Source: Pascua guehoae | Taxonomy: Eukaryota; Basidiomycota; Tremellomycetes; Trichosporonales; Trichosporonaceae | DNA length: 64,000 bases | Direction of reading: 5' to 3' | Assembly (NCBI GenBank): GCA_001600415.1 | Contig: BCJX01000001.1 | Location: 1,497,398-1,561,397 of the forward strand | Shown here: positions 25,091 through 44,521 of the stretch, one piece after another | Layout of the letters: every line of letters starts with the position of its first letter | Numbering within the stretch: the first letter of the stretch is position 1 | The notes under the pieces: generated by a model | Database searches by the model: none | The model's input: the letters and a program-made list of their open reading frames with translations, nothing else | Told to the model about the DNA's origin: nothing | Translations under genes and position numbers: made by a program

Positions 25091-27865
25091 ATGTCGCGTC
25101 GCAAGGCCTTTGACACGTCCCTCACGGGTGGCAGCGGCACGTCCAAGTCCAAGACGCCCTCCATTACGTCTGCCAGCACGGGTGATGACAAAGCCGTGAC
25201 TGTCAAGGCACCCAGTGCCGCAGGTATCTCCACCCCACCTGAGCTTGATGACACATCCGTCTGCTTTATCTGTGCCGAGCCCGTGACCTTCTGGGCAGTG
25301 GGCCAGTGCAACCACCGCGTATGCCAGTACGTATACTCGCAATGCTACATGCTTGACAAGCTAACAAAATGCCAGTGTTTGCGCGATCCGTCTGCGTGTC
25401 TTCTACAAGTATGTCGTGTCAACACACTTCGGATCCGAAAGTGATCGTACATGCTGGGGCAAGGTACTAACCACACTACCCCAGGATGCTCGAGTGTGCC
25501 TACTGCAAGACACTGTGTCCTTCCCTTCTCTTTTCACGCTCGCATGAGACTCCCTTCCCCGATGGTCCGTTCCGCCGCCCCTCGAGCGAGCAGGCCATTG
25601 AGCGTGCACATGCCGATGCCGACAAGCCCGAAAACAAGGGCAAGAAGTGGTATCAGGGCCTTGTGCTGCCTGGGACACTCGACTTGAAGGACTTTAAATA
25701 CAAGGACGACAAGCTGGGGGTGGTCTTTGAGGACGAGGATGTCGTGAGTTGACAGGACCTTGGCTTGACTAACCCCACAGATGGAGTCATCGCTGCTGCT
25801 GCTCCGCTTCAACTGTCCCTACCCTGACTGTGCCCACATGTCGAATGGGTGGCAGGGCCTGGAGAAGCATACACTTGCAGAGCATGGTTTAGTATTCTGC
25901 AAGCTTTGCACACGTCAGCTCTCTCGCTTTTCCCACGAGCAGGTACTGTATCCGCCGCATCTGCTTGCCTTGCACGACCCGTCGCGGTTGCAGCGTGGGC
26001 AGAAGCCGCCTCGCCCCAGGACCGATAAAGAACGAGACTTGGTCAAATCATGGGACACTCCCCACCCCATCTGTGAAGTAAGTCCAACTCGCTGTCGCTA
26101 AGCTGACGATCCAGTTCTGTCACGAAGCCTTCTTTGGCCCCGACGAGTTATTCAAGCACATGCGCGAGCGCCACGAAGAGTGCTTTGTGTGCAAACAGTT
26201 AGGACACAAGGATGTCTAGTGAGTGAAACCCCCATGTAATCGCTAACTGTCCAGTTTCCAGAATTATGCCAAGTTGGAAAACCACTTCAAGTGCGTAGCT
26301 ACTCTCTGTATGTCATATAGCTGTGCTAACCATCAGCCGCGACCACTTCCCGTGTACCAATCCTATCTGTGTGGAGAAGAAGTTCCAGGTGTTCGGCAGC
26401 GAGCTGGACCTTCGTGCCCACATGATGGAGGAGGTGAGCACATTTGTATCTGTCTGCAACTGACGAGTCAGCACGGCGAGGCCATGTCTCAGCGTGACCG
26501 TGCGCAGGCCCGTCAGCTCCACATTGACTTTGCTTCACCCCGCGATGCTGGACCCTCACATACTGCCCCCTCGCGTGCCGGTGGACGTGGCTTCACTCTT
26601 GGTGGTCAGGCAGCTCCCCAGGCGCAGCAGCTTGCCCCTCCGCCGATGAACGCGGCGCAGGCGGCTCAGCATCGTCGCCAGCGGCAGACGGACCGCCACG
26701 AGGAGAGCCGTCGCCGCAAGGCGTTCGCCACGGGTCTCAGCGACGGTAACGGCGCGTCGTCGTCTGCACCTGCTTCCGCCCCTGCCTCGGGTCGCCAGAG
26801 CCCCGAGGAGAGTGCGAGCGGATTCGCTACCCCACGTGAGGATGTCGACGACGCTACTGCTGCTCGCCACGCGGCTCTGCTCTCGCGTGTGTCAATGCTT
26901 GTCAACGACTCTGCGACCAAGCTCGCGTCTTTCCGCTCGGCCGTGCGCCAGTTCAAGAACGGCGAGTCGACGGCCAAGGACATGGTCGACACGCTGTACA
27001 ACGTATTTGACCAGGACCAGGACACGACCTCTGGCGTGTCGCGTGAGATTGCCAATCTCTTCAATGGCGAGGGCGACCAGGACAAGCAGAGGGCAGTGCT
27101 CGAGGCATTGAATGCGTTCCGCGTGGAGGTGGGTTGCATTCGTCTTCCAAACTGACCCAACAGCAACAAGAACAATTCCCTGCCCTTGGTGGGGCGCCTA
27201 CCGGTCTGGGCACCAACTGGGCGGCCGTCTCGTCTGGTCGCATCCTCTCTGCGAAGCGTGCAACACGCACGGGTGGTGGTCGTTCCAACTCGCAAGTATG
27301 GGACCGCGTCGCGGCTGCAGCGTCCCGCCCAACCACGGGCCTCAACGGCCGGACTGTGCCCGGTGCTACCGCTCGTTCCGCTGCGGCCTTCCCTGCGCTC
27401 GCGGCGGGTCCGTCCAAGCCTTCCACGCACTCGACGCCGTGGGCCGGCGGTGGCGCTGGTTCGTCATCCAAAGCGCCCTCGGCACTCGTTCCGCAGATCC
27501 GTTCCGTGCACATGCCCACCGTCTCGAGCTACAAGGGCAAGTCGAACAAGTCTACGTCGCTCAACAAGGCCGAGTTCCCTGGTCTCCCGCCGTCGTCCGG
27601 TAAGAAGACGACGGCGGCCGAGCGTGCAGCCCTGTTTGCCAAGCCGACACCGCGTGACGAGACGATTGCCCGCATCCGCGGACAGCCCGTCGCAAAGGCA
27701 CCGTCTGGCAACCAGTGGGGCGGGACGAGTGTTTCCAACGGCGTCGCGAGCATGAGCATCGCCGACGAGCCGACGGAAGCTCCTGCACCGGCAGAAGCGA
27801 CGACAAAGAGCAAGAAGAAGGGCAAGGGCAAGCAGCTCCTCTTCAGCGTCAGTGCGAGCCATTGA
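25091..27865 (+). CDS. HEL2: Hel2/ZNF598-type RING E3 ubiquitin ligase
   Basis: Nine exons (25091-25326, 25376-25408, 25485-25743, 25781-26077, 26115-26218, 26255-26290, 26337-26433, 26472-27128, 27164-27865) give 806 residues. Hel2/ZNF598 senses collided ribosomes, ubiquitinates small-subunit proteins and starts ribosome-associated quality control. The RING lies at about residues 57-97 (CFICAEPVTFWAVGQCNHRV, then CHVCAIRLRVFYKMLECAYC across two introns). A series of C2H2-type fingers follows: CPYPDCAHMSNGWQGLEKHT, CEFCHEAFFGPDELFKHMRE, ECFVCKQLGHKDVYFQNYAK and CTNPICVEKKFQVFGSELDL. The C-terminal half is disordered with the conserved EFPGLP and a KGKGKQLLF end. Exons 2 (33 nt) and 6 (36 nt) are very short. 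Confidence 0.95.
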
Positions 27866-31730: not shown

Positions 31731-31829
31731 TCTTCGCTAGTATATCGGTTAGTATAATCGCCTCTCAAGAGAGAGCCCGGCAACAGCTGGAGAACGCGAT
31801 AGAGCAGGGTTCGACTCCCTGGCGGAGAA
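31731..31829 (+). tRNA. tRNA-Glu (anticodon CUC) with a 27 nt intron
   Basis: The acceptor stem TCTTCGC (31731-31737) pairs with GCGGAGA (31822-31828), discriminator A at 31829. The D arm is TAGTATATCGGTTAGTATA. The anticodon stem ATCGC (31757-31761) pairs with GCGAT (31796-31800). The anticodon loop C-T-CTC-A places CTC at 31764-31766. An intron (about 31768-31794) sits at the canonical position one base 3' of the anticodon. The T arm is CAGGG-TTCGACT-CCCTG. A TTTTT terminator follows at 31832-31836. All four stems pair with only one G-T wobble in the acceptor stem. Confidence 0.93.
31768..31794 (+). other. tRNA-Glu(CUC) intron
   Basis: 27 nt removed by the tRNA splicing endonuclease; it starts AGAGAGAGC and lies directly after position 37. 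Exact ends could shift by one base. Confidence 0.8.
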
Positions 31830-31831
31830 GC

Positions 31832-31836
31832 TTTTT
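31832..31836 (+). terminator. RNA polymerase III terminator of the tRNA gene
   Basis: A run of five T three bases after the tRNA discriminator base. Confidence 0.85.
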
Positions 31837-32297
31837 GCCTCTGGCGGTGCTGGGATGTGGACGGGGTCCGTGACATGGTCGTGCGTGGTGTTCCGACTCG
31901 CTGGGAAGGGCTGGGAGTGAGGAGGACGAAGGACAGGTGCGAGTTGGGACTGGGGCTGAGGTGCTGAGGCTTTGTGGGCCCTCCTGCTCCTCCTGACATG
32001 GCTGACGATGTAGCTGGGACGTGCAGATAGACATGGTCTGTGCGTAGTGGGCGAAAGGTGCTGGGTGGGGGAGACGGCACGGCTGACGCTTGTGACGATA
32101 TACCGCACTGCCTGCTCACGTCTCCTGCCACGCGCTTGCAACTGGGCTAATGCAATGTCCGATAGCATTGAAGGAACTCATTACGAAGGAAACAGTTACT
32201 TTTGAGTGGTGCGCCGACAGCTCGCGATGTCAACTGCACGTCAGCCCAGGTCCTTGTCCAACCTCTGACCGCTCACCACGGGCATGCGATGGCGTGG
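31837..32297. other. Spacer between the tRNA and the cysteine-module gene array
   Basis: This 461 nt stretch shows only short open frames on both strands and no recognisable feature. It should contain the 3' UTR of the two-module gene on the minus strand. Confidence 0.4.
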
Positions 32298-33104
32298 TTA
32301 CCAGTCGGTCGGGAGGCAGCGCCCGCAGTGGCTGCACATGACCCAGCCGTCGGCGCGGCGGAACGGCGAGCACCAGCCTGGTTCGTCAGCTCCATACTTG
32401 TGCCTTGCTGCCTGGGACTTGACTGTGTACACGACGATCAAACCGGGTGCAGTGTACAAAGCCAGCAGGCCCGAAACCCCGTGTGGTGCAGTGCACGTCG
32501 GAGACCCCGCCGGGGATGGACCTACCGCCAACATTGCAGCCCTGCGAGCTGCCCGTGCACGTGGTCGGGTGGTGCGGGGGGTGGACGTAGCCCGTCTCGG
32601 CGGGCGGCGGGCGCGTCTTGCTGAATGTAAGCGACGAGGGGCAGTAGTACAGGCGGCAAGTCAAGTCTGCATGGCAGCCATGACCGATAGGCTTGACAGC
32701 GACCAGCGGCGGCTGACGACCACAATACTGTGCAGTATTAATTCACGCGCCCTGGTGGCACGGGCCGCGGATCGGCCGCCACGCGCCACAGAGGAACAGG
32801 AGTGACAGCCACCGGCACCACGCCACCACGCCCGGAGGCCAGGAGGCCAGGTCCACGCCGGCGCGCGGCACCGAGGGAGGGCTGGCCCAGACCCCGCCTG
32901 AGCCTCGAGCCTAAGCCTCGAGCCTGAGCCAGCCTCGAGTCGACTCACCCGCAGTAGATGCACGCCGAGCCGCCGTCCCCGGTCTGCTGAAAGTCGCACA
33001 TGTCTGGGGTTGGCTCGACGTTTTCTTTTCGTTGGACCTCGCAGAGGGTACGTACAGCCGTAGTTTTGCCAGTGGTTGTGGGCGGCGCCGGTGCAGTAGG
33101 ACAT
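32298..33104 (-). CDS. Two-module member of the small cysteine-module gene array (92 aa)
   Basis: Four exons (33104-33056, 33003-32949, 32620-32526, 32377-32298) give 92 residues. Module 1 is C4-x-G...N14-x4-C19...C31-x2-C34 (NHWQNYGYMCDF, ACIYCG). Module 2 is C56-x-G...N64-x4-C69...C81-x2-C84 (CTGSSQGCNVGGWC, DGWVMCSHCGRCL). Each module is split by a phase-1 intron at the same codon (N+3). A phase-2 intron with a perfect GTGAGT donor and a CTTAC branch point before CAG links the modules. If that 328 nt intron is not removed, TGA inside the donor ends the protein after 35 residues, so module 1 alone would be made. Four cysteines per module suggest zinc binding; the function is unknown. Confidence 0.72.
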
Positions 33105-35630
33105 TTTGTATGGCCGGAGGGGGGGTGTACTAGGCTATAGAATAGAGAGTTTGGGGGTTGGGGATGAGGAGTGGGGGTGGGGCGGGGGGGGGGNGATTAT
33201 TATCTGTTTTTCTGCACCAGTGCAAGGCAGGGTACGAGGGTACGAGACGGCTGCGAGAGAGAGAGTGTGTGGAGAGCATGGAGGTCTACGGCGTGGATGC
33301 CATGTATCTCCTGGCGCACCCGATCGGGGACACGGCGAGCATGGCATACACGAGGCCGCCACGCGCGCCGCGCTCGATGAGGAGGGGGAGGGGGTTGGGG
33401 GAAAGGAGGGAGCAGGGAGGGAGGAACGAGGTAAGAGGGAGTAGGGAAGAGAGTGACAGAAAATGAGAAATAGAACACCGACAGAGCGTGGACCCGCTCA
33501 CTCGCTCACTCGCGCACTCGCGCACCCGCCCACTCGTGGACGCCGCAGGTTGTTGCAACACTGCTGTCCTGTGGCGCGGCATGGCCCCAGGTCCTCGCCA
33601 CCAGAGCCCCAGGTACGTCCTCGAGGCCGGGGTGCATGACTACCAAGCCGCATTGGGGCGGGCGAGACGGTGGGGCTCATTGGACAATTGGGCGCCTGTG
33701 ACAGCCACGACACTCTTGCCAGCCTGCACTGCGGTACGCGCTTGCGCAACGCGATGCCATTGGGCTGTACGTGTAGCGTGTTCAGGTTTCACAGAGCCAC
33801 ATTGCGCACGGGGTCTGGGCGGGTGATGCTGGTTAGAGCCCCACCGGATCTTGGCAGCGTCAGGCAGGTGGAGCCTCCCTGAGTGTTGCAGAGAAAAACA
33901 CGCTCTTGGGTCGTTTCGGCAGTGCGGCGGCGCGGTTTGCAACGGCTACCTATACTATGTACCCTGCCCCGGTCCTCTGGTACGGTCCATATGTCGCGAT
34001 CGAGAAAACGTTGGGGCCAGGTGTCTTATCCAACGACGCGTAGAGTCTGTGCTTCAGGTGCGTTTGTTTGGACGCGTTTGCGGGAGCGACGCCTCGCGCG
34101 CCTCGTGTTTGCGGCTCGGGCGACGCCACCCCCACCCCATTAACCCCATTGCCACCATGCCACCCGTCCAGGCTCGTGTGGCGTTTGTGGATGTATGTGT
34201 TTTGCGGCATTTTGCTGCCCCGCATGCATGCCCCGCTTTCGATTCCCACGTCGCGCCTGGATTTTGCGCAGTATCGGATCCGAGCGAGTCGTAACCGCTG
34301 CGTCCCCGCAAGAGCGAGGCCGTGCGACGCTGCGACGAACAGCGCACGGGTACATGTTTGCATGCAAGGCGTGGTGCATACCTGTGTACCTGGCATGCAC
34401 CGCGGCACCGTGCCATGGCAGTACGGGTGTGTCCTAAAAGTCATGAGACTGCGTGTGACATTAATCTAGGGCACCGGTACGGCAGGCATACAGAGCGGCA
34501 CACAGGAGGCGGCGCGCAGGACATGTGGGATACAGCAAGCAGGAAACATCAGTGTGTCCACTTGCCGTGCTTGCAGGTCTAGAGAGTTTCCATGCGCAAC
34601 TTTGGCTGACCGAGCTCAGACTCAGAGTGGGAGTCTCAAGACTTTCCGGACACACGGTATTGCTCCTTCCAACTGGGGCGCGCGTAGGAGTGACCAACAA
34701 GACTAGCATACTAAGACGAGTGTACAAAGACTAGTATACTGCCTTGGTCGGACGGCAAGTCTCTAGAATGTTCTGTGGGTAATGAAGATAGTGATGAGCC
34801 TTCTCCGTGTGCGTACACGTGGACTACCACTGCGACTCAGCCCGCTCCGCAGCGTGTTTGGCACAAACTAATTAAACAAAGGAAATGAACATGTTTCGGT
34901 GCACCGTACTGTGGTGCTGAAAATGCGTGCGCAGCCCCGTGCTGACTACATCATGTGTATGCGCCACATTCCGCACACGTTGCCAACTTGCACAACTGGT
35001 CAATGCAACCATGCATGGTGGCAACGTTGCTCAAGGCAGTACAATGGCCCTCATAAAGGTTGACACTACGCGTGCGTAAGCCACAGGGAGTACAAGGCAG
35101 TACCACAGAGGTTTTTGTGAAAATCCCTGTCGCCACGGGGGGGGGGGGGGGGGCTGGGTGTCAACCTTTAAGCGGGTCACTGTACTGTTCACAGGCACAC
35201 TTCGTTTGACGAGAGAGATACTTGGCCCACCATCCTTTGTTACATCGACCTGGTCCGCTGACACATGCTAGTCGCTGACACATGCGAGGTGCTGACCCAC
35301 TCGAGTTGCTGACACACTCGAGTCCGTAAACAGACGCATCACCACCTCCAGCCATGGCAACACGTTTGCTTCAGACCAAGTTTTCTTCAGACCCTCCCGG
35401 GATGCATTCTGAACTTATAATACACTTTTGATTTCTGTATTGATACGTATGTTGTTGTTTGTTTTTCGTAGAGTCGTCAAGGAGTCGTAACTATGCGATG
35501 GTATGGGCGCGACACGCGGTGCCGTCGTGGTATGGAGGTATGTACGGTACGGACGGACGCCAGTAGTGGCGTACGGTAGGTCTCGGCGACTCGCGCGCGA
35601 CTCGGGAGGTACCGGCTCGCTCGCCGCCCC
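33105..35630. other. Gene-poor 2.5 kb inside the cysteine-module array
   Basis: No frame with the module or any other known domain was found here. It includes one undetermined base at 33194 in a G-run, and a 17 nt poly-G run at 35137-35153. The first 50 nt should be promoter of the two-module gene. The region is less GC-rich toward 34.8-35.5 kb. Confidence 0.45.
35137..35153. repeat. Poly-G run (about 17 nt)
   Basis: An uninterrupted G homopolymer in noncoding DNA; its true length may be uncertain from sequencing. Confidence 0.85.
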
Positions 35631-35985
35631 TCAGTCGAGGTTGCGGCGGCAGAAGCGGCACAGACGCCAGCCGCACACACGCAGGTCGAGACGGCAGAAC
35701 CCTGTTTGTCAGCAGGCTGTACAGAGCGTGGTGCGGCATGCGACTCTGGGTGGGTGGTGTGTGGGTGTGCGTGTGTGTGTTTGCAGAATCGCCACGCGCG
35801 CCACGGCCAAAATGCCACTCTTGGATAAAAGGATGAAAACGCTTTTTGCCACCCAACACTTCGCCACCCACGCCACTCGGCCGCCCACCCACACCACCCA
35901 CACACCACCCCACCCCAGCAAATGGTCGATACTCACCACCCCGGTTCTCGCCAAGCGTGGAACCCAAGCAGCGAATATTGGGCAT
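35631..35985 (-). CDS. Minimal single-module member of the cysteine-module array (39 aa)
   Basis: Two exons (35985-35937, 35701-35631) encode only 39 residues, almost nothing but the module: C6-L-G...N14-R-G...C19...C31-x2-C34, with CRLDLRVCGWRLCRFCRRNL at the end. The phase-1 intron (235 nt, GTGAGT...ACAG) falls in codon 17, three after N14, as in all paralogs. A good TATA box (GATTATATAA on the minus strand, 36041-36050) lies about 60 nt upstream of the ATG, and the leader between them is short and AT-rich. This makes it the clearest case that such tiny genes are transcribed. An extra Cys at position 26 is unique. The protein has no signal peptide, so it is likely intracellular. Confidence 0.75.
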
Positions 35986-36430
35986 TTTAGTGGATGGACA
36001 AAGAGATGAATGAATGTTTAAAGTCGCTGCAGCGCAACGCTTATATAATCGTTTCCCATGCCCAGGCTGGGTCAGCGTAGGCCAAGCCCCGCCGGCCTCC
36101 CGCCGAGGTATTTCCAATTTGCCACGTGGTTCGCGGGTCGAGTGGCGTTTTCGAGCTTTCGAGTCGAGAGTGGCACATGTCCACAATATTCCATGAGTCC
36201 GTCCAGATGCATTGCACCATGACTGGGCCACACGAGGCCAGGAGCGAATAGCAGAGGTTGCATATTAACTCTCGGGGACAACCCATGTCACATAAGGCAG
36301 TGAATTATGCATTGGAAGAGCTACAGGATGCAGAACAATACCCACGCGCCGGCGCGTTTGTCATGGAATTTCGGCGCCCGAAGCGGCGCCGGCGTCGCAC
36401 GACCCCCGAGGGCCGCCGGGCACGAGGCCG
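35986..36430. promoter_or_regulatory. Upstream region of the 39-residue gene
   Basis: The 445 nt holds the TATA box at 36041-36050 (minus strand) and the 3' flank of the next array gene. No further gene was seen. Confidence 0.55.
36041..36050 (-). promoter_or_regulatory. TATA box of the 39-residue cysteine-module gene
   Basis: GATTATATAA on the minus strand, 56-65 nt before the ATG at 35985. Confidence 0.65.
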
Positions 36431-36823
36431 CTACGCCTCCTTCGCGTCGTCTCCACCACTCTGCTGCGCGCCTGCACCTCCCCCCTTGGCTTTGAGCTCA
36501 CGCCACCCTAACACGCGCTTGCAGTGGCGGCACGTTACCCAGCCGTCCTTGGCTGTAGTTGGGCAGCAGTAGTCTGGCGCAGTCATGTCAGGCGGAAACG
36601 AACAGTGTACGAAGGTGCGGGGCTATGCATGGCCCGAGGAACGGGGGACTGAGTACGGAGGGGGAGCACGGTGGGGGAGCACGGAGGGGAGCACTGGGCG
36701 GAACACCGAGGCTCCTGCACATACTCGTCAATCGCACAACGTACCGCCTTTGTTGAACCCTTTCTGATCGCCCGCGCAACCGTTGGAGAACGGGCAGGGA
36801 GGCGGTTTCCAGGGCTTGGGCAT
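36431..36823 (-). CDS. Cysteine-module array member (73 aa)
   Basis: Two exons (36823-36745, 36573-36431) give 73 residues. The N-terminus MPKPWKPPPCPFSNG is Pro-rich. The module is C16-A-G-D...N24-K-G...C29...C41-x2-C44 (CAGDQKGFNKGDYCC, DGWVTCRHCKRVLGW). The intron is phase 1 in codon 27, GTACGT donor and GCGCCAG acceptor. After the module comes a short Gly/Gln/Asp tail (KAKGGGAGAQQSGGDD). A stop codon in frame directly upstream of ATG 36823 supports that start, unless an unseen upstream exon exists. No signal peptide. Function unknown. Confidence 0.74.
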
Positions 36824-37525
36824 GGGCTTTCAAAGCGTGGTTGGCGGTGCGTGACGAGGAAAACGTGGTGGGGGACAAGTTTGGTGAACGATAAACGCGT
36901 GGTATGGAAAGGTAGAAATGGGCTGCAGGAAGCGCAATGCACCACGCACCACTGGCATTTTGAACCCCAGGCATGCCACGCAGTGCGTGGTCTGCGCACG
37001 AAAGGCCTTGTGCTGCTGCATGTAGAACCGGTCGCAAAGCACACAATCAACCATGGGCTGCTCATAAGCTGTGTGCCTGCTATGCCATTAATGAAACCTC
37101 CAGCCTGCACAGACCAGACGAGGAAACTTTGGCATCCCCAAACACTGTATGTCGGAATTTTCACAGCAGGCCCCTCCCGGCACTCGGCCGCGAGCTTCAT
37201 CGCGGTGTGCAGATGTTACAATGTTGTACAGACGAGAAATTCGGCACACGATCACTCCGGAAATTTCCGTCGTGCGAGCCACCCGAAGCCACCTGCAGTG
37301 CCGCAGTCGCTCACCCCCACCACGACGGCGAATTCTCTTGCCAGCCAGATTTCCTGTCACCCAGTTTTCTTGCCATCCAGATTGATTCCTTGCCACCGAG
37401 TTGTGCCACCGAGTCCCTTTGCCCCCACGTCCCCTTGTAACCCAGAAATGTAAATTTTCCCTGCCTCGTTTCCAAAACCCCTACCGATGGAAGTACGCAT
37501 GCACATTGCACGTTACACGTTCCAG
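36824..37525. other. Intergenic region within the cysteine-module array
   Basis: The 702 nt between two array genes contains overlapping short frames on both strands without the module. Near 37330-37440 there is a CCAG/CCACCGAG-type semi-repetitive segment. Confidence 0.4.
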
Positions 37526-38135
37526 CTAAGCATACATGTACGCCGCGTCGTACTGATACTGCCTCCGGCCCATGACGCGGCGGCAGTGGCGACAGACGAC
37601 CATGACCCCCGGGTGGTCCCAGGTGCGCAGCTCGACGACCTTGCACGACCCTGCGTGTGAGCGTGTGTTCCGTGGTGTTCGTGTATGGTCCAAGCCATTG
37701 CTCAATCCCAAACCACTCTCAAGAGTCTGGAGACTGGGAGGAGGGTGGGACACGGCACTCACGACCACGGTTGAACGCGTACTCGTCGCCCTTGCACGGG
37801 TACCGCGTCCAGTGGAAGCAGGGGGGGTGGCTGCGCCAGAAGCTCGGCCGCAGGATAGGCGGGAGGAAGAAGATGCGGCGGTAGAATACTCTTCGTCGCG
37901 GTGGCGGCCTGGGGGCGTTGGTGGGGTCGCCGGGTACCTCTACTTGAGAGACGGGGCGGGCGGGCGACGAGGGGGCCGTCGGGTAGGGCGAAGAACCGGC
38001 GCGAGGCGGGATGGGCACGTAGGCCGACGCGAGCGGCGTCGGGGGCGTCAGGTAGATGGTGGGCGGCGAGGGGGGGCGGACTATTGGGTGGTGCTGGTGG
38101 TAGTGCACAGGCATGGCGTACGGGGCGACGTTCAT
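37526..38135 (-). CDS. Cysteine-module array member with long Pro-rich N-terminus (165 aa)
   Basis: Two exons (38135-37763, 37650-37526) give 165 residues. The first 100 residues are Pro/His/Ala-rich (MNVAPYAMPVHYHQHHPIV, PPTIYLTPPTPLASAYVPIP) and likely disordered. The module is C114-K-G-D...N122-R-G...C127...C144-x2-C147 (CKGDEYAFNRGRSCK, VMVVCRHCRRVMG), then a Tyr-rich tail (RRQYQYDAAYMYA). The phase-1 intron cuts codon 125 (C|GG), again N+3, with GTGAGT donor and CGCAG acceptor. The leader before the ATG is CT-rich (CCCACCTCTTCACCATG), a good start context. Confidence 0.76.
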
Positions 38136-38858
38136 GGTGAAGAGGTGGGCAACAGGAACACAGAGTACGAGGGGGACGACTATTATGTGCTCTCGACGCG
38201 CTCTGGCGAGGTCGACGACAAGTGTGTCCATGTCCTCTGCAGCTGGCCACTCTGCTGGCTGCCTTTGCCACTAGGCACTGGTTGTCACCTTGGGTCGTCT
38301 CTGTGCATCCCCCCCCTGTTTATCCCTTGTTTTGGGGCACCTTTGTTTTGTCGATCACGATCGGTGCTTTGGGGGGACCCCGCAGCCACCGCAGCCACCA
38401 CAGCCACCGTTCCACATTCCGACAAACAGTCATGTTGCACGGTGTACAATACATACAGAACCTAGTAGACATGTACAAGCATGCAGATATGCAGACCCCG
38501 TAACATTCCGACAAACCGATCATGTTTCGTCGCTACCGTCGCTACAACAACCCGGACAAGATAATGGGGTAGCCGACGGCGCCCACCCCGGCCCCCAGAC
38601 AAATCTACCAGAGCGAAGCCCGTTGGTGACAAGTGGTGAGAGTCGCCGCCGGAGTGTGCAGCGTGCAGCTCGGACCCAGCCGTCGGCGGCTAGGTGGCTT
38701 CTTCCCCACGACTGTCCCCATGTCACCGCTCGTTCCTCCCTCTGTGAACAAGGCAGATCGTACGATTTTGGCCACATAGTTCTGCTAGCAAGCAAACCAA
38801 CACCCCATTCCCATGCATTTGCCACCTTTATACTTGGCCTCCCTGCCAGCCTCGCTCT
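38136..38858. other. Intergenic region containing a possible decayed array member
   Basis: The 723 nt between two array genes holds the candidate remnant at 38640-38700 and otherwise nothing recognisable. Confidence 0.4.
38640..38700 (-). pseudogene. Possible decayed last exon of a cysteine-module gene
   Basis: On the minus strand GCCGACGGCTGGGTC is identical over 15 nt to the last exon of the two-module gene. The following codons keep a Cys and an RRRL-like end, but the C-x2-C spacing is lost. No matching first exon was found upstream. This looks like a relic of a duplicated copy; the match is short and could be chance. Confidence 0.35.
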
Positions 38859-39274
38859 CTATGGCGGCACGGCCCAGCGGCTCTTGGTCGACGCCTTGAT
38901 GCCGAGGATACCCGTGCAGTGCTCGCACACGACGAGGCCGTTGTTCATGCGGAACGTCTGGCACAGGTCTGTCGCGCAGCGTGGGGCGAAAACAAAAAAA
39001 AAAATCAAAAATCAAAATCCGAATCGAGCGCCGTTTGGGGGTGGGTAGGCCGTACGGGGTAGTGGGCGCCGGGAGGATCGGATACGGATACGGGTACGGA
39101 CACGGGTAGGATACGTACCGCACAAGAAGTCACTGTCAGTGTCCCACAAATCTCCGAGGCCCAGCGATAAAACGTACACCCACGGTTCCTGCCCGCTTGG
39201 TCGCCGGGACAGAGCTGGATGGGCTTCTTGGAATCGCCCGGTGGGGAGCGCGGGGGAGCAGGACGTGACCTCAT
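38859..39274 (-). CDS. Cysteine-module array member (68 aa)
   Basis: Two exons (39274-39178, 38968-38859) give 68 residues. N-terminus MRSRPAPPRSPPGDSKKPIQ; module C22-P-G-D...N30-R-G...C35...C47-x2-C50 (CPGDQAGRNRGYLCQ, NGLVVCEHCTGILG); tail IKASTKSRWAVPP. The phase-1 intron (209 nt, GTACGT to GACAG) cuts codon 33 (T|AC), at N+3. Without the splice the frame runs into unrelated residues after the conserved NRG, so the paralog comparison fixes the donor. The leader upstream is CT/CA-rich. Confidence 0.75.
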
Positions 39275-41168
39275 GTTGGCTGCGGAAGTTGCGCGAGCGT
39301 AGCGTGTGCGAGAGTGTGGGTGGGAGGGGTCAGGCCATGAGAGGGGATATGGAGAGGGGAGAGAAAGGACAGCAAAGTGTGAATATGTAATACCTGTCCT
39401 CGAGGCTGCGACCACGCCACACACACACTTGCGGCAGCACGCAGCAAGTGTCCGTCGGCCGTCGGGAGGCTTCGGGACGCCGGCGCCGGCAGAGTGTTCT
39501 TTCTCGTGCCCATGTCCCGCACGGAACCCCGCGCTCGAAAAGGTACCATGCAGGGGAGATGCTTCTGACATTATCTTATGTCTCGGGTACGATACAACCT
39601 GGCTTGATACATGGTCATGTGCCAAATGAAGCCCAGAGGTGTCCAAAGGGGGATTGACGACTGTCTAAACCAGTCATGCCTAGTCATCATTTCCATAAAA
39701 CAATGTATGTGCGCGTCTCAACCGCTCACTTGGCACGTGGACTGCACTTCTCCAATAGCCGCCGAGCAACTCAGTCTCCCCAGTACCTCAACGACACGAG
39801 CTACCTGGTGATTTGTCTCCAAGGAGATGCACACGATTGCATCAAGACTCACTTACAGGCCGAGGCCATTCGCCAGGCGATATGAATACCACGTTTCTCT
39901 CAAGCGCTAAAGGGATGGCTTTCCACCACCGCAGGCTACTGTTGGCTGACCCACATTATCCTCGTTCCATCCTCACTTTGCCAAGCTCCTGGCTCTCTCC
40001 CGGTGGGCGTGGCAGAGGTCGTCGTTAACACCGTCCGTGGTGAGGGTATGCTTCCCCAGCGGAGCTATGTCATGACCGGGGCGCCATACCAAGAGGAAGG
40101 GCGTGGGACGAGTATGGGTGGTGAGGGGGGGGGGGGGGGGTGGTGTCGAGGGGTGAGGGTTGGGTGGCAAGGGGAGAGGGGTGGGTGGCAAGGGAAATGG
40201 GTGGCAAGGGAAGTGGGTGGCGAGGGAAGTGGGTGGCGAGCAGAGAGGGTTGGATAGGTACAGTTGGTAGCTAGGAAAAGGTGAAGTGAAATGAAGTGAA
40301 GTTTAGGTTATCGCACCCCCAACTGGGCAGCGCAGTGTCACTCGCGCCCCCATTGCGGGCAGCGCATTGACAAGTTTGGTTGACAGTGATGTTACTTGTG
40401 GGAGAAGATGAGTGTAATAATAGATATGTGCAGTTGTGTCAAGGACGTGTCTTAAGAGAGGGGCTGCTACGTTTGAACAGATTTGTTGCTTGTGGAGAGC
40501 GGCGCCACTTTGCCAAATTGGGTGGCGACTGTCTTTGTCCCCCTCCCAACCTTCGTGTCCTCCGTCTCGGAGGCTGTTCATTCAGCAATGGCAGGAGATT
40601 CCAACAAAGCGGTCATCCCCGAGCCCGAAGCGGGTGGCACCACTCTCTTGGATTCGTGAGGGCAAAGTCTCAAAGACTCACACGTCGACGTTGCGATTGA
40701 TTGATTCTACTCTTTGCCGCCTGGTATCCCCTGAAGAGAGACCCTGATTCGATCCGCATGTGTCGGAAAGTCGTTTCGAGGCGTTATTGTGTTTCAACCG
40801 AAAAGGATGCAGACAGTTGGAACGGACAGTCGACGCTGCTGGTGACTGATGGGTGTGGACCGCTGTAGCAGAGGAAGGGACTTGTATACGCAGCCAGCAA
40901 TGCACGAGGGTTGGATTAAAGGTATTTGGTTAGTGGTTGGGGCTGGTGTGGTGTTGCGTGTGTGCGTCAATGGCAAGACGGCCACAGTGCTGTTTGACAC
41001 GAGGAGGCAATTACATTTCAACCTTGCCAACAATCGAGAATACCGATGATGGCAACTATGAAAGGCAGCGACGTAGTTGCCGCAGTGGAAAGATGTGAAT
41101 GCAATGGACAATACCCAACGCCCAAACAGGCCCATCACCACACTGCCTCCCGACACCTATCAAACAAG
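39275..41168. other. Gene-poor 1.9 kb within the array
   Basis: No module-encoding frame or other gene was recognised. It holds a poly-G run (about 40125-40140) and GTGGGTGGCAAGGGAA-type tandem repeats (40158-40240). The first 150 nt should be the promoter of the 68-residue gene. Confidence 0.45.
40125..40245. repeat. Poly-G run followed by GGGTGGC(A/G)AGGGAA tandem repeats
   Basis: A G homopolymer of about 16 nt followed by at least four imperfect units of about 17 nt, each containing GGGTGGCRAGGG. The G-rich strand is plus. Confidence 0.8.
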
Positions 41169-41641
41169 CTACACGGCGCCGACGCGCCGGCAGTAGGGGC
41201 AGAGCACCAAAGACCCATACCCCAGAGCGCCACAGAGATCTTCATCCGTCAGCATCGACACCCTTGGCTTTGGCGGCGCCACTACTCACAGCCACGGTTG
41301 ACTCCCCAAAGGTCGCCAGCGCACAGCGCGTCCTGGAAGCAGCACATCGGGACCTGGTCGCGCACAGTCGTGTCGGTGCTTTCGGTGCTTCCGGTCGGGA
41401 AGGTGCAGAGGTATGCCGCGGGACACGTTGCGTCACCACGGAAGCCTGGGGCGAGGGTGTTTGCTGAACTGGTGGTGCCTTTGTGGCTGTTCTGGTCCGG
41501 AAGTGGGGCGCGGGCGGGCGGGGCGTCGGTGGCGCTCGCGCTGGCTTCTGTGCCGTGGGCGGTGGGATGGTACAGGCATGAGAGCGGGTCGTCGTATGTG
41601 TACGCCGTGGTGGACGTTGGGGGTTGGTGGTGCTGGGTCAT
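41169..41641 (-). CDS. Cysteine-module array member with Ser/Thr/Pro-rich N-terminus (140 aa)
   Basis: Two exons (41641-41290, 41239-41169) give 140 residues. The N-terminal 100 residues are Ser/Thr/Pro/Ala-rich with scattered cysteines (DPLSCLYHPT, ATCPAAYLCTFPTG, VPMCCFQDAL). The module is C107-A-G-D...N115-R-G...C120...C131-x2-C134 (CAGDLWGVNRGYLCG, SLVLCPYCRRVG) and the protein ends a few residues later. The phase-1 intron is only 50 nt and cuts codon 118 (T|AT), at N+3. The start has a good context (CAACTCTCACCATGAC). Confidence 0.76.
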
Positions 41642-42189
41642 GGTGAGAGTTGGTGGGAGTGAGTAAATGAGACGCCGCAAGATGAGTAAGAGCGTGTGAT
41701 GCTGGGTGTCTACGAGTGGATGTCTGCGAGTGGATGTGTATCTGTTGCATGTGAGTTGCGAGGAAAGGGGTGATTCACACGAAGTACACATGGCATAAAC
41801 AAAACAAGGCGTCAGCAATCAGCATCACTCGGCGCCACTCTCGCCGCTCGGTGTATTTGCCACCCAAACCGCCATCGAGCATCGGTCCACAGCGTCTCTT
41901 CTATTGTTCAGTTCCTTTCCTGGGGTGGTTGTGGGAATGCTCGGGCAACAGCACTTACAGGTTCAGAATCAGCCAAAGGACCATAGCCCCAGGGGCCACA
42001 GAGTGTACCTGTATGTGCGTGTGTTTGTGCACGAATCGACTCAATGCCAGCACCCCAAAGACATAGTATACACTTCATCCAACACGTAGACTTGCCCAAC
42101 TAGCCCAACTCGAACCTACAGTACGGTACACCCCGCGCCACCGACAATTCACCGCCACTCTCCCGAAGCCACCACCCTAACCCCCCGAC
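41642..42189. other. Intergenic region within the array
   Basis: The 548 nt should contain the promoter of the 140-residue gene and the 3' flank of the 52-residue gene. No gene was recognised. Confidence 0.4.
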
Positions 42190-42413
42190 TTATTCGCCCA
42201 AGTACCGCCCGCAGAGCTTGCAGGTGACGACGTTGCGCCCCTTTTCGTCCGTGTTCTCGACCGGTTGGCACATTCCTATCGACGTCAGTTGTTTCGTCAC
42301 CGTATCAGTGCATGGAACAGCATTCATGGCGCGCACATACCCTGGACGTTTTCGCCAAACTGGTTGCCCTCGCACCGGAATCGTCCTGCCTCCTTGCGAG
42401 TTTCTTCGAGCAT
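42190..42413 (-). CDS. Cysteine-module array member (52 aa)
   Basis: Two exons (42413-42341, 42275-42190) give 52 residues: a short charged N-terminus (MLEETRKEAGRFR), then the module C14-E-G-N...N22-V-Q-G...C27...C43-x2-C46 (CEGNQFGENVQGMCQ, VVTCKLCGRYLGE) and stop. The phase-1 intron (65 nt, GTATGT to GATAG) cuts codon 25 (G|GA), at N+3. The spacing between Cys2 and Cys3 (15) is longer than the usual 10-11. The ATG at 42413 has a good context (TTGACACCATGC); the frame is open upstream through a Pro/His-rich stretch to 42611, so a longer form up to 118 residues is possible. Confidence 0.72.
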
Positions 42414-42895: not shown

Positions 42896-44521
42896 TTACC
42901 CCACAGGGCCGAGATAGGCGGCCACACCACCCGTCCCCACAACGCTGGCGTCCATGTCCTCCTCGCTTTCCCCCGCGGCACGCAGACATGCTGCGCCTTC
43001 TGCTACGACCTTCTTCTTGCCCTCGTCACTGAGCTTGTCCTGCTCGAAGTCTGCTGCCGTGACCATTTCTCGCCCATATGCACACAAGGCTTGGCGCGTA
43101 AATGACAACGTAAGTAGCTGGGGTGCGCGCCGTGCGTACGCCTCGGCCAAGGCTTGTGCAAACACATCGCAGCGTGCACGTGCGAGCTCCGCCGCAGCGA
43201 TGGGTACAGACAATGTCGCGTCGGATTTCGATGGAGAGTGCTGGGCTTGGATGCCGTGCGCAGCAATGTGCGAGAGGAGCATGCCCACGTCCCCGCCGGG
43301 ATGGGCGGGTCCGGCAAACTCCCAATCAACGAGGGCGAGGCGCAGTTGGGCCCCATCGTCGTCAGCGCCGTCGGCATGTGAATGTGCTTTGCTCGATTCG
43401 GCCTCGCTGGCGGCGCATCCAAGCAGCACACTGCCGGGCCACAAGTCGACCATGCCCCAGATCTTGACGCCGTCGGCGGGCGGCGTACCCAGCCCAAGTC
43501 CGATACGCGTGGTGAGGAGGTCGGCGTCGGCAGCGTCAGACTCGCTGCTGTGCGTGCAGAGGAGGCGTGTGACACACGAGGAGAGGTAGGCTGCCATACT
43601 CGGCCCTGAGGGATTAGGGTCGGTGAACCGTGCGAGTAGCGTGTCGGACGGTCCCAGTGCTGCGAGATGCAGAGCAGCAAGGGTGCGGCCCATGCGTTCC
43701 CCAGCAGACTGTGCGATGCGCTCGTCCAAGGCGGTGAGATCTGGAGCAGCAGAGACATTATTGCCGCTGGGACAGACGCCCGAGTCTGCTGCTGCTCCCT
43801 GTCGCTCTGCCTCTGCGGCGTCTGCCTCTTCAAGCGCTGGTGTCTGAAGCAGTGACAGCTGTGCTCCAAGGAGGTAGTCTGTCAGAGTCGTGAGGCGACC
43901 CAGATCCGTGATCCAGAGTACATTGTGTGCGACATCATGCCACAGCACCGACGGGACCTTGACGCTGCCCTCGTCCAGTGCAGAAGAAAGCGACTCGTCG
44001 CCGGCAAGATGCTCGAGAGCGCGCGCCTCTGCTGTTTGCCGAAACGTGCTCAGTGGCGTCGCCTTGTCCCCCGGCATGTGGTCAGGGGCATACTTGAGCA
44101 CGCAGGATGGGCAGTGCAGGCCTGGTTGGACAGGCTGCGCCACAATGGTGCCCAGGAGGCCACCGGTTTGTCCCCGAGCCGTTTCAAACTCGTCACCCTC
44201 TACGGCCGCCACGCATGCGACGTTCGCGTCTTCCGAACCGGGTGTGGGGATTTGGGACGAGATGGCTCCGTCTGCCCCCAGCCGTCGAGCTTGTCGTGGG
44301 CCGTTTGCCCGAGCAGTGTCCGAATCGGCACCGTCTAGTATCTCTAGGCGCACAGTCGAATTGACTATCCCCCCAGTCAGTCTTGTAATCCGAAGCGCCG
44401 CCGACGGCAGGCCAAGCGCGTTTGCCGTATAGTCAGCCCACTGAGTCAGCTCCATGCCTGTTGGGAATACGGTAGACACGACGCGGGAATAGGAGGAGAG
44501 ACGGACAAAGGAGACATGCAT
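42896..44521 (-). CDS. Aminoglycoside-phosphotransferase (APH)-fold kinase-like protein
   Basis: A single frame of 541 residues. The APH/choline-kinase fold is seen in LRITRLTGGIVNSTVRLEIL (N-lobe loop), CVLKYAPDHMPGD with the ATP-binding Lys, the catalytic-loop equivalent IWGMVDLWPGSVLLG, and the metal-binding LALVDWEFAGPAHPGGDVGM. In the catalytic loop the His of the usual HGD is replaced (GMVD). Long low-complexity inserts (Ala/Glu-rich near 43800, Asp/Ser-rich near 43400) enlarge it. The start may instead be the internal MELTQWADY at 44455. The end is unusual: the stop TAA lies inside a GTAAGT-like donor at 42898. Substrate unknown; family members phosphorylate small molecules. Confidence 0.75.
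   Translation of the reverse strand: MHVSFVRLSSYSRVVSTVFPTGMELTQWADYTANALGLPSAALRITRLTGGIVNSTVRLEILDGADSDTARANGPRQARRLGADGAISSQIPTPGSEDANVACVAAVEGDEFETARGQTGGLLGTIVAQPVQPGLHCPSCVLKYAPDHMPGDKATPLSTFRQTAEARALEHLAGDESLSSALDEGSVKVPSVLWHDVAHNVLWITDLGRLTTLTDYLLGAQLSLLQTPALEEADAAEAERQGAAADSGVCPSGNNVSAAPDLTALDERIAQSAGERMGRTLAALHLAALGPSDTLLARFTDPNPSGPSMAAYLSSCVTRLLCTHSSESDAADADLLTTRIGLGLGTPPADGVKIWGMVDLWPGSVLLGCAASEAESSKAHSHADGADDDGAQLRLALVDWEFAGPAHPGGDVGMLLSHIAAHGIQAQHSPSKSDATLSVPIAAAELARARCDVFAQALAEAYARRAPQLLTLSFTRQALCAYGREMVTAADFEQDKLSDEGKKKVVAEGAACLRAAGESEEDMDASVVGTGGVAAYLGPVG

Follow-up and report, generated by a model that had tools for sequence, protein, structure and literature searches.

A tandem cluster of very small basidiomycete genes sharing a four-cysteine module and one intron position: a candidate family of zinc-binding microproteins

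The closest described counterparts of the genes reported here are the zf-RING_7 family and the one-domain zinc finger micro-proteins of the archaeon Haloferax volcanii. The zf-RING_7 family carries the motif CXXC-X18-26-CXXC, and the proteins compared there have a long coiled coil preceding it (PMC5947703). The micro-proteins are stand-alone and very small, with several per genome (PMC6562870). The genes of the present locus also encode very small, free-standing proteins, a comparison of kind that carries no claim of homology; only three of the seven (g1, g3, and g6) encode fewer than 70 aa, and one (g7) has two modules.

The window, i.e., the whole 64,000-nucleotide stretch of DNA analyzed, corresponds to C1:1497398-1561397 of a 33.6-Mb, 28-contig genome (GC ~60%). 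The presence of introns, this GC content and the top match of a kinase-like gene next to the cluster (Saitozyma, 35%) indicate a basidiomycete, probably a tremellomycete. Hand splicing with a script check yielded seven module genes between window positions 42413 and 32298, all on the minus strand and together carrying eight modules, consistent with the original prediction in number, strand and position. Its range of protein sizes, 39 to 165 residues, was likewise recovered after splicing:

g1, 42190..42413, minus strand: 52 aa; exons 42413-42341 and 42275-42190; one module
g2, 41169..41641, minus strand: 140 aa; exons 41641-41290 and 41239-41169; one module, C-terminal
g3, 38859..39274, minus strand: 68 aa; exons 39274-39178 and 38968-38859; one module
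g4, 37526..38135, minus strand: 165 aa; exons 38135-37763 and 37650-37526; one module close to the C-terminus
g5, 36431..36823, minus strand: 73 aa; exons 36823-36745 and 36573-36431; one module
g6, 35631..35985, minus strand: 39 aa; exons 35985-35937 and 35701-35631; the module is nearly the whole protein
g7, 32298..33104, minus strand: 92 aa; exons 33104-33056, 33003-32949, 32620-32526 and 32377-32298; two modules

The N-terminus of g4 was proline-rich. We infer that g7 is one two-module gene with a 328-nt middle intron, and the total is seven genes rather than eight because the last two modules are joined through this intron. Open spliced frames with intact donors and acceptors were found for all seven genes. 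The donors were GTRNGT in 9/9 introns of the models, and CTNAY lay 11–18 nt ahead of the acceptor in seven, the exceptions being the first intron of g7 and the intron of g3, in which CTNAY was absent from the last 60 nt. An A was present at -3 for six of the seven start codons, and third-position GC was 0.83 in the joined coding sequence vs. 0.61 in the introns. A codon-usage score, whose training set included spurious ORFs, ranked the true frame top of six in five of the seven genes; antisense frames beat g1 and g6, and the true frame of g6 was the lowest of six.

The eight modules shared the consensus C-x-G-x(5 or 7)-N-x4-C-x(10-16)-C-x2-C, with six residues (C, G, N, C, C, and C) invariant in every module of the cluster. 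The first cysteine pair was C-x(10 to 12)-C and the second C-x2-C in 8/8. The cysteines, glycine and asparagine were thus as originally described; the spacing of four to six residues proposed between Gly and Asn was not, being five residues in seven modules and seven in one. An x-R-x-L-G tail, said to follow often, was complete only in g1 and g5 (2/8), with the R in six modules and the L in five. Including a gene on contig C17 described below, the four cysteines were kept in 9/9 strongly diverged copies, as expected of the single, widely diverged family with retained cysteines that had been proposed. That proposal was strengthened by a feature absent from it: position and phase of the intron were identical in 8/8 modules, splitting the third codon past the Asn after its first base (phase 1). 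This common phase-1 intron is the best evidence in the sequence for common descent of the modules.

The splice-aware fixed pattern matched eight times in the cluster and nowhere else in 264 kb on both strands, with no additional match in the 100 kb on either side of the window. Markov-1 simulation gave 15 matches over 150 runs of 264 kb, i.e., 0.38 per Mb, and an earlier set of 12 simulated runs gave none. Leave-one-out scoring was the fairer test, because the pattern had been built from the same modules: held-out modules scored 31.1-51.1 in 7/7 cases, compared with 22.9-26.4 for the top-scoring pair beyond the cluster, with the x7-spaced module left out and spurious in-cluster pairs dropped from the background. 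A comparison of the dN/dS type between paralogs, suggested as a check on the prediction, pointed to purifying selection on the module at the codon level, with pN<pS in 30 of 36 pairs (mean pS 0.56, mean pN 0.37; 17 aligned codons in nine modules, including the six invariant positions, which biases the result toward pN<pS).

Genome-wide protein queries returned the query genes themselves plus a few weak matches, and are weak for such divergence, the g5 query recovering a single one of the seven modules besides its own. A weak match on contig C17 (E 0.008) came from the g7 query, and two genes were read there:

C17:338758-338970: 52-aa gene; the six invariant residues are all present, and the phase-1 intron is shared
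C17:339632-340086: doubtful second gene, left out of the counts

The 52-aa gene sits ~0.7 kb ahead of the second, originally matched gene. The unchanged splice-aware pattern matched it, which makes it an out-of-sample match; at the simulated rate, about 0.0007 matches are expected by chance in the 1.8 kb of C17 read, a stretch picked because of the weak match. The family predicted to be tandem therefore does form a tandem cluster, and is not purely tandem. Exon 2 of the doubtful gene fits the family, and its intron lies at the shared place and phase; in exon 1, His replaces both the first Cys and the Asn, the score on the exon-1 matrix is 0.0 and the coding signal is weak (third-position GC 0.62, below the first-position 0.70). 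It is possible that this gene could be read unspliced. Weak query matches at C5:705815, C11:397231, C6:1825061, C15:584566, and C1:53968 contained no module on reading. Additional weak matches fell at C11:231649 and C5:1137066, and further copies of the family may exist in the genome.

Searches for known relatives agreed with the earlier remark that the pattern was not familiar from named domain families. No significant match was found in Pfam (sub-cut-off matches only, among them Zn_ribbon_10 at 0.091 and PyrI_C at 0.027, the latter with the C17 protein), NCBIfam (one match at 0.27), PHROGs (one match at 0.053) or the PDB sequences. The profile search against proteins suggested alongside the prediction gave the same outcome: among 5.8 billion proteins, profiles A1 (40 candidates) and A3 (959 candidates) had no match at E up to 10, in a search that reaches predicted proteins with shared 5-residue words, fungal proteins included (the kinase-like gene beside the cluster found Saitozyma), and that could miss unannotated or very diverged relatives. 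Judged by titles and abstract openings, no listed paper was recognizable as describing the module family. Weak profile matches in the PDB were confined to the C-x2-C side, the best being a glutaredoxin (E 0.045 in one search, 0.1 in another), followed by RNF125 (0.12), uS14 type Z (0.35), CT398 (0.47 and 1.1 in two profile searches), and HP0958 (1.2 and 0.84). Because the C-x2-C of glutaredoxin is a redox site, these weak matches alone are no proof of zinc.

The modules resemble zf-RING_7 (PF02591; HP0958, CT398, and MSMEG_4306) in having a C-x2-C and then x-R-x-L closing a short ribbon, and in the profile searches HP0958 and CT398 matched weakly over this second half only. However, in place of the first CXXC all eight modules have C-x(10 to 12)-C with C-x-G and an Asn, the 39-aa protein has no coiled-coil domain, and the module family gave no match to the Pfam entry for zf-RING_7 at E up to 10. 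The likeness to uS14 type Z is the weak match that covers the C-x2-C turn; uS14 itself acts in the ribosome and carries two such C-x2-C pairs. The GRF-type zinc finger has an N-x-G stretch before a cysteine that resembles the module, with a different ligand order and spacing; it was considered for this N-x-G and dropped, GRF not being among the Pfam matches.

As predicted, the proteins appear to lack signal peptides: by simple hydropathy, which is not a signal-peptide predictor, none of the seven had a hydrophobic N-terminus, the highest 10-residue value within the first 35 residues being 0.80. The four invariant cysteines, combined with this N-terminus, would favor zinc over disulfides. The module is probably self-folding, since g6 consists almost entirely of it. 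The array is tight. Its duplications look old, because no direct DNA repeat of at least 24 nt between 31900 and 42700 links the copies besides a simple repeat and a single 26-nt pair (77%). Of the claim that the family is old and still duplicating, the age is supported, and ongoing duplication is not.

These observations are best explained, with a probability of roughly 0.6, by an old, lineage-restricted basidiomycete family of free-standing zinc-binding microproteins that expanded mostly in tandem. The common module, the place and phase of its intron, and the second locus were observed directly, and on this sequence evidence the orphan family is real; it would be known in kind, as small zinc-ribbon-like proteins, and apparently new in sequence as well as in the motif's first half. 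An unlikely alternative is that the modules belong to a described zinc-ribbon family, of the zf-RING_7, uS14 or PyrI metal-domain type, as a branch so diverged that it has passed beyond profile recognition, its first C-x2-C knuckle having been stretched to C-x-G-x5-N-x4-C. The weak matches linking the second half with CT398, HP0958, and uS14 type Z, and the C17 protein with PyrI_C, are what such a branch might leave, yet no match reached a curated cut-off and the first half was never covered. It is much less probable that the genes are genuine but decaying copies, leftovers of a once larger family with some pseudogenes among them: the doubtful second C17 gene and the poor codon score of g6 point in that direction, against which all seven cluster genes keep intact spliced frames, splice sites and the six invariant residues.

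That the proteins are held by disulfides instead of zinc, for example as secreted effectors, would fit their small size and conserved cysteines; given that the first 35 residues contain no hydrophobic stretch, and that the C-x2-C, together with the conserved glycine and asparagine, resembles a metal knuckle, we regard this as very improbable. Scarcely credible is an origin by chance, with the pattern arising from GC-rich sequence and no genes present, or with the long plus-strand ORFs (e.g., 37572-38465) as the real genes, since eight matches fell within 10 kb vs. the simulated rate, and the seven plus-strand ORFs tested over the cluster had a third-position GC of 0.55-0.69 and no Pfam match at E up to 1.

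For the family of zinc-binding microproteins preferred here, the four cysteines would bind a single zinc, giving ~30 residues the fold of a ribbon. The second half of this ribbon may be an ordinary hairpin closing with C-x2-C, a turn that resembles those of zinc ribbons, and its first half may be an atypical loop, C-x-G-x5-N-x-G-x2-C. With less confidence, each protein could be an intracellular adaptor: the zinc core, constant among the copies, would dock on a single type of partner (protein or RNA), and copy-specific tails and charge would set specificity. Such a role would fit the widely differing tails and the pI values, which ranged over 5.4-10.2 among the seven genes and was 4.1 for the C17 gene. 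It is a tentative suggestion, somewhat doubtful at present, that the ~30-residue C4 module represents a new zinc-fold family, with a first half unlike described knuckles, serving as the interchangeable core of tandem and dispersed fungal microproteins and probably missed by standard annotation. If real and expressed, this would be a clean duplicated microprotein family, united by one intron and outside the domain libraries searched, and g6, at 39 residues, would come close to a minimal metal-folded domain that is easily produced and solved. Interest is held down because fungi commonly have gene families restricted to one lineage.

Several other features were observed in and around the cluster. 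A tRNA-like stretch, possibly intron-containing, was spotted by eye at 31735-31840 and had no match in ARAGORN or Rfam. A short tandem repeat of TGGGTGGCAAGG-like units occupied 40140-40261, between g2 and g3. Beside the cluster, on the plus strand at 26274-27155, was a gene with a ZNF598 PAH domain (PF23202). Immediately upstream of g1 and on the same strand was a kinase-like gene (42896-44521; APH, PF01636), whose top protein match among the best 7999 candidates scored was from Saitozyma sp. JCM 24511 (35%).
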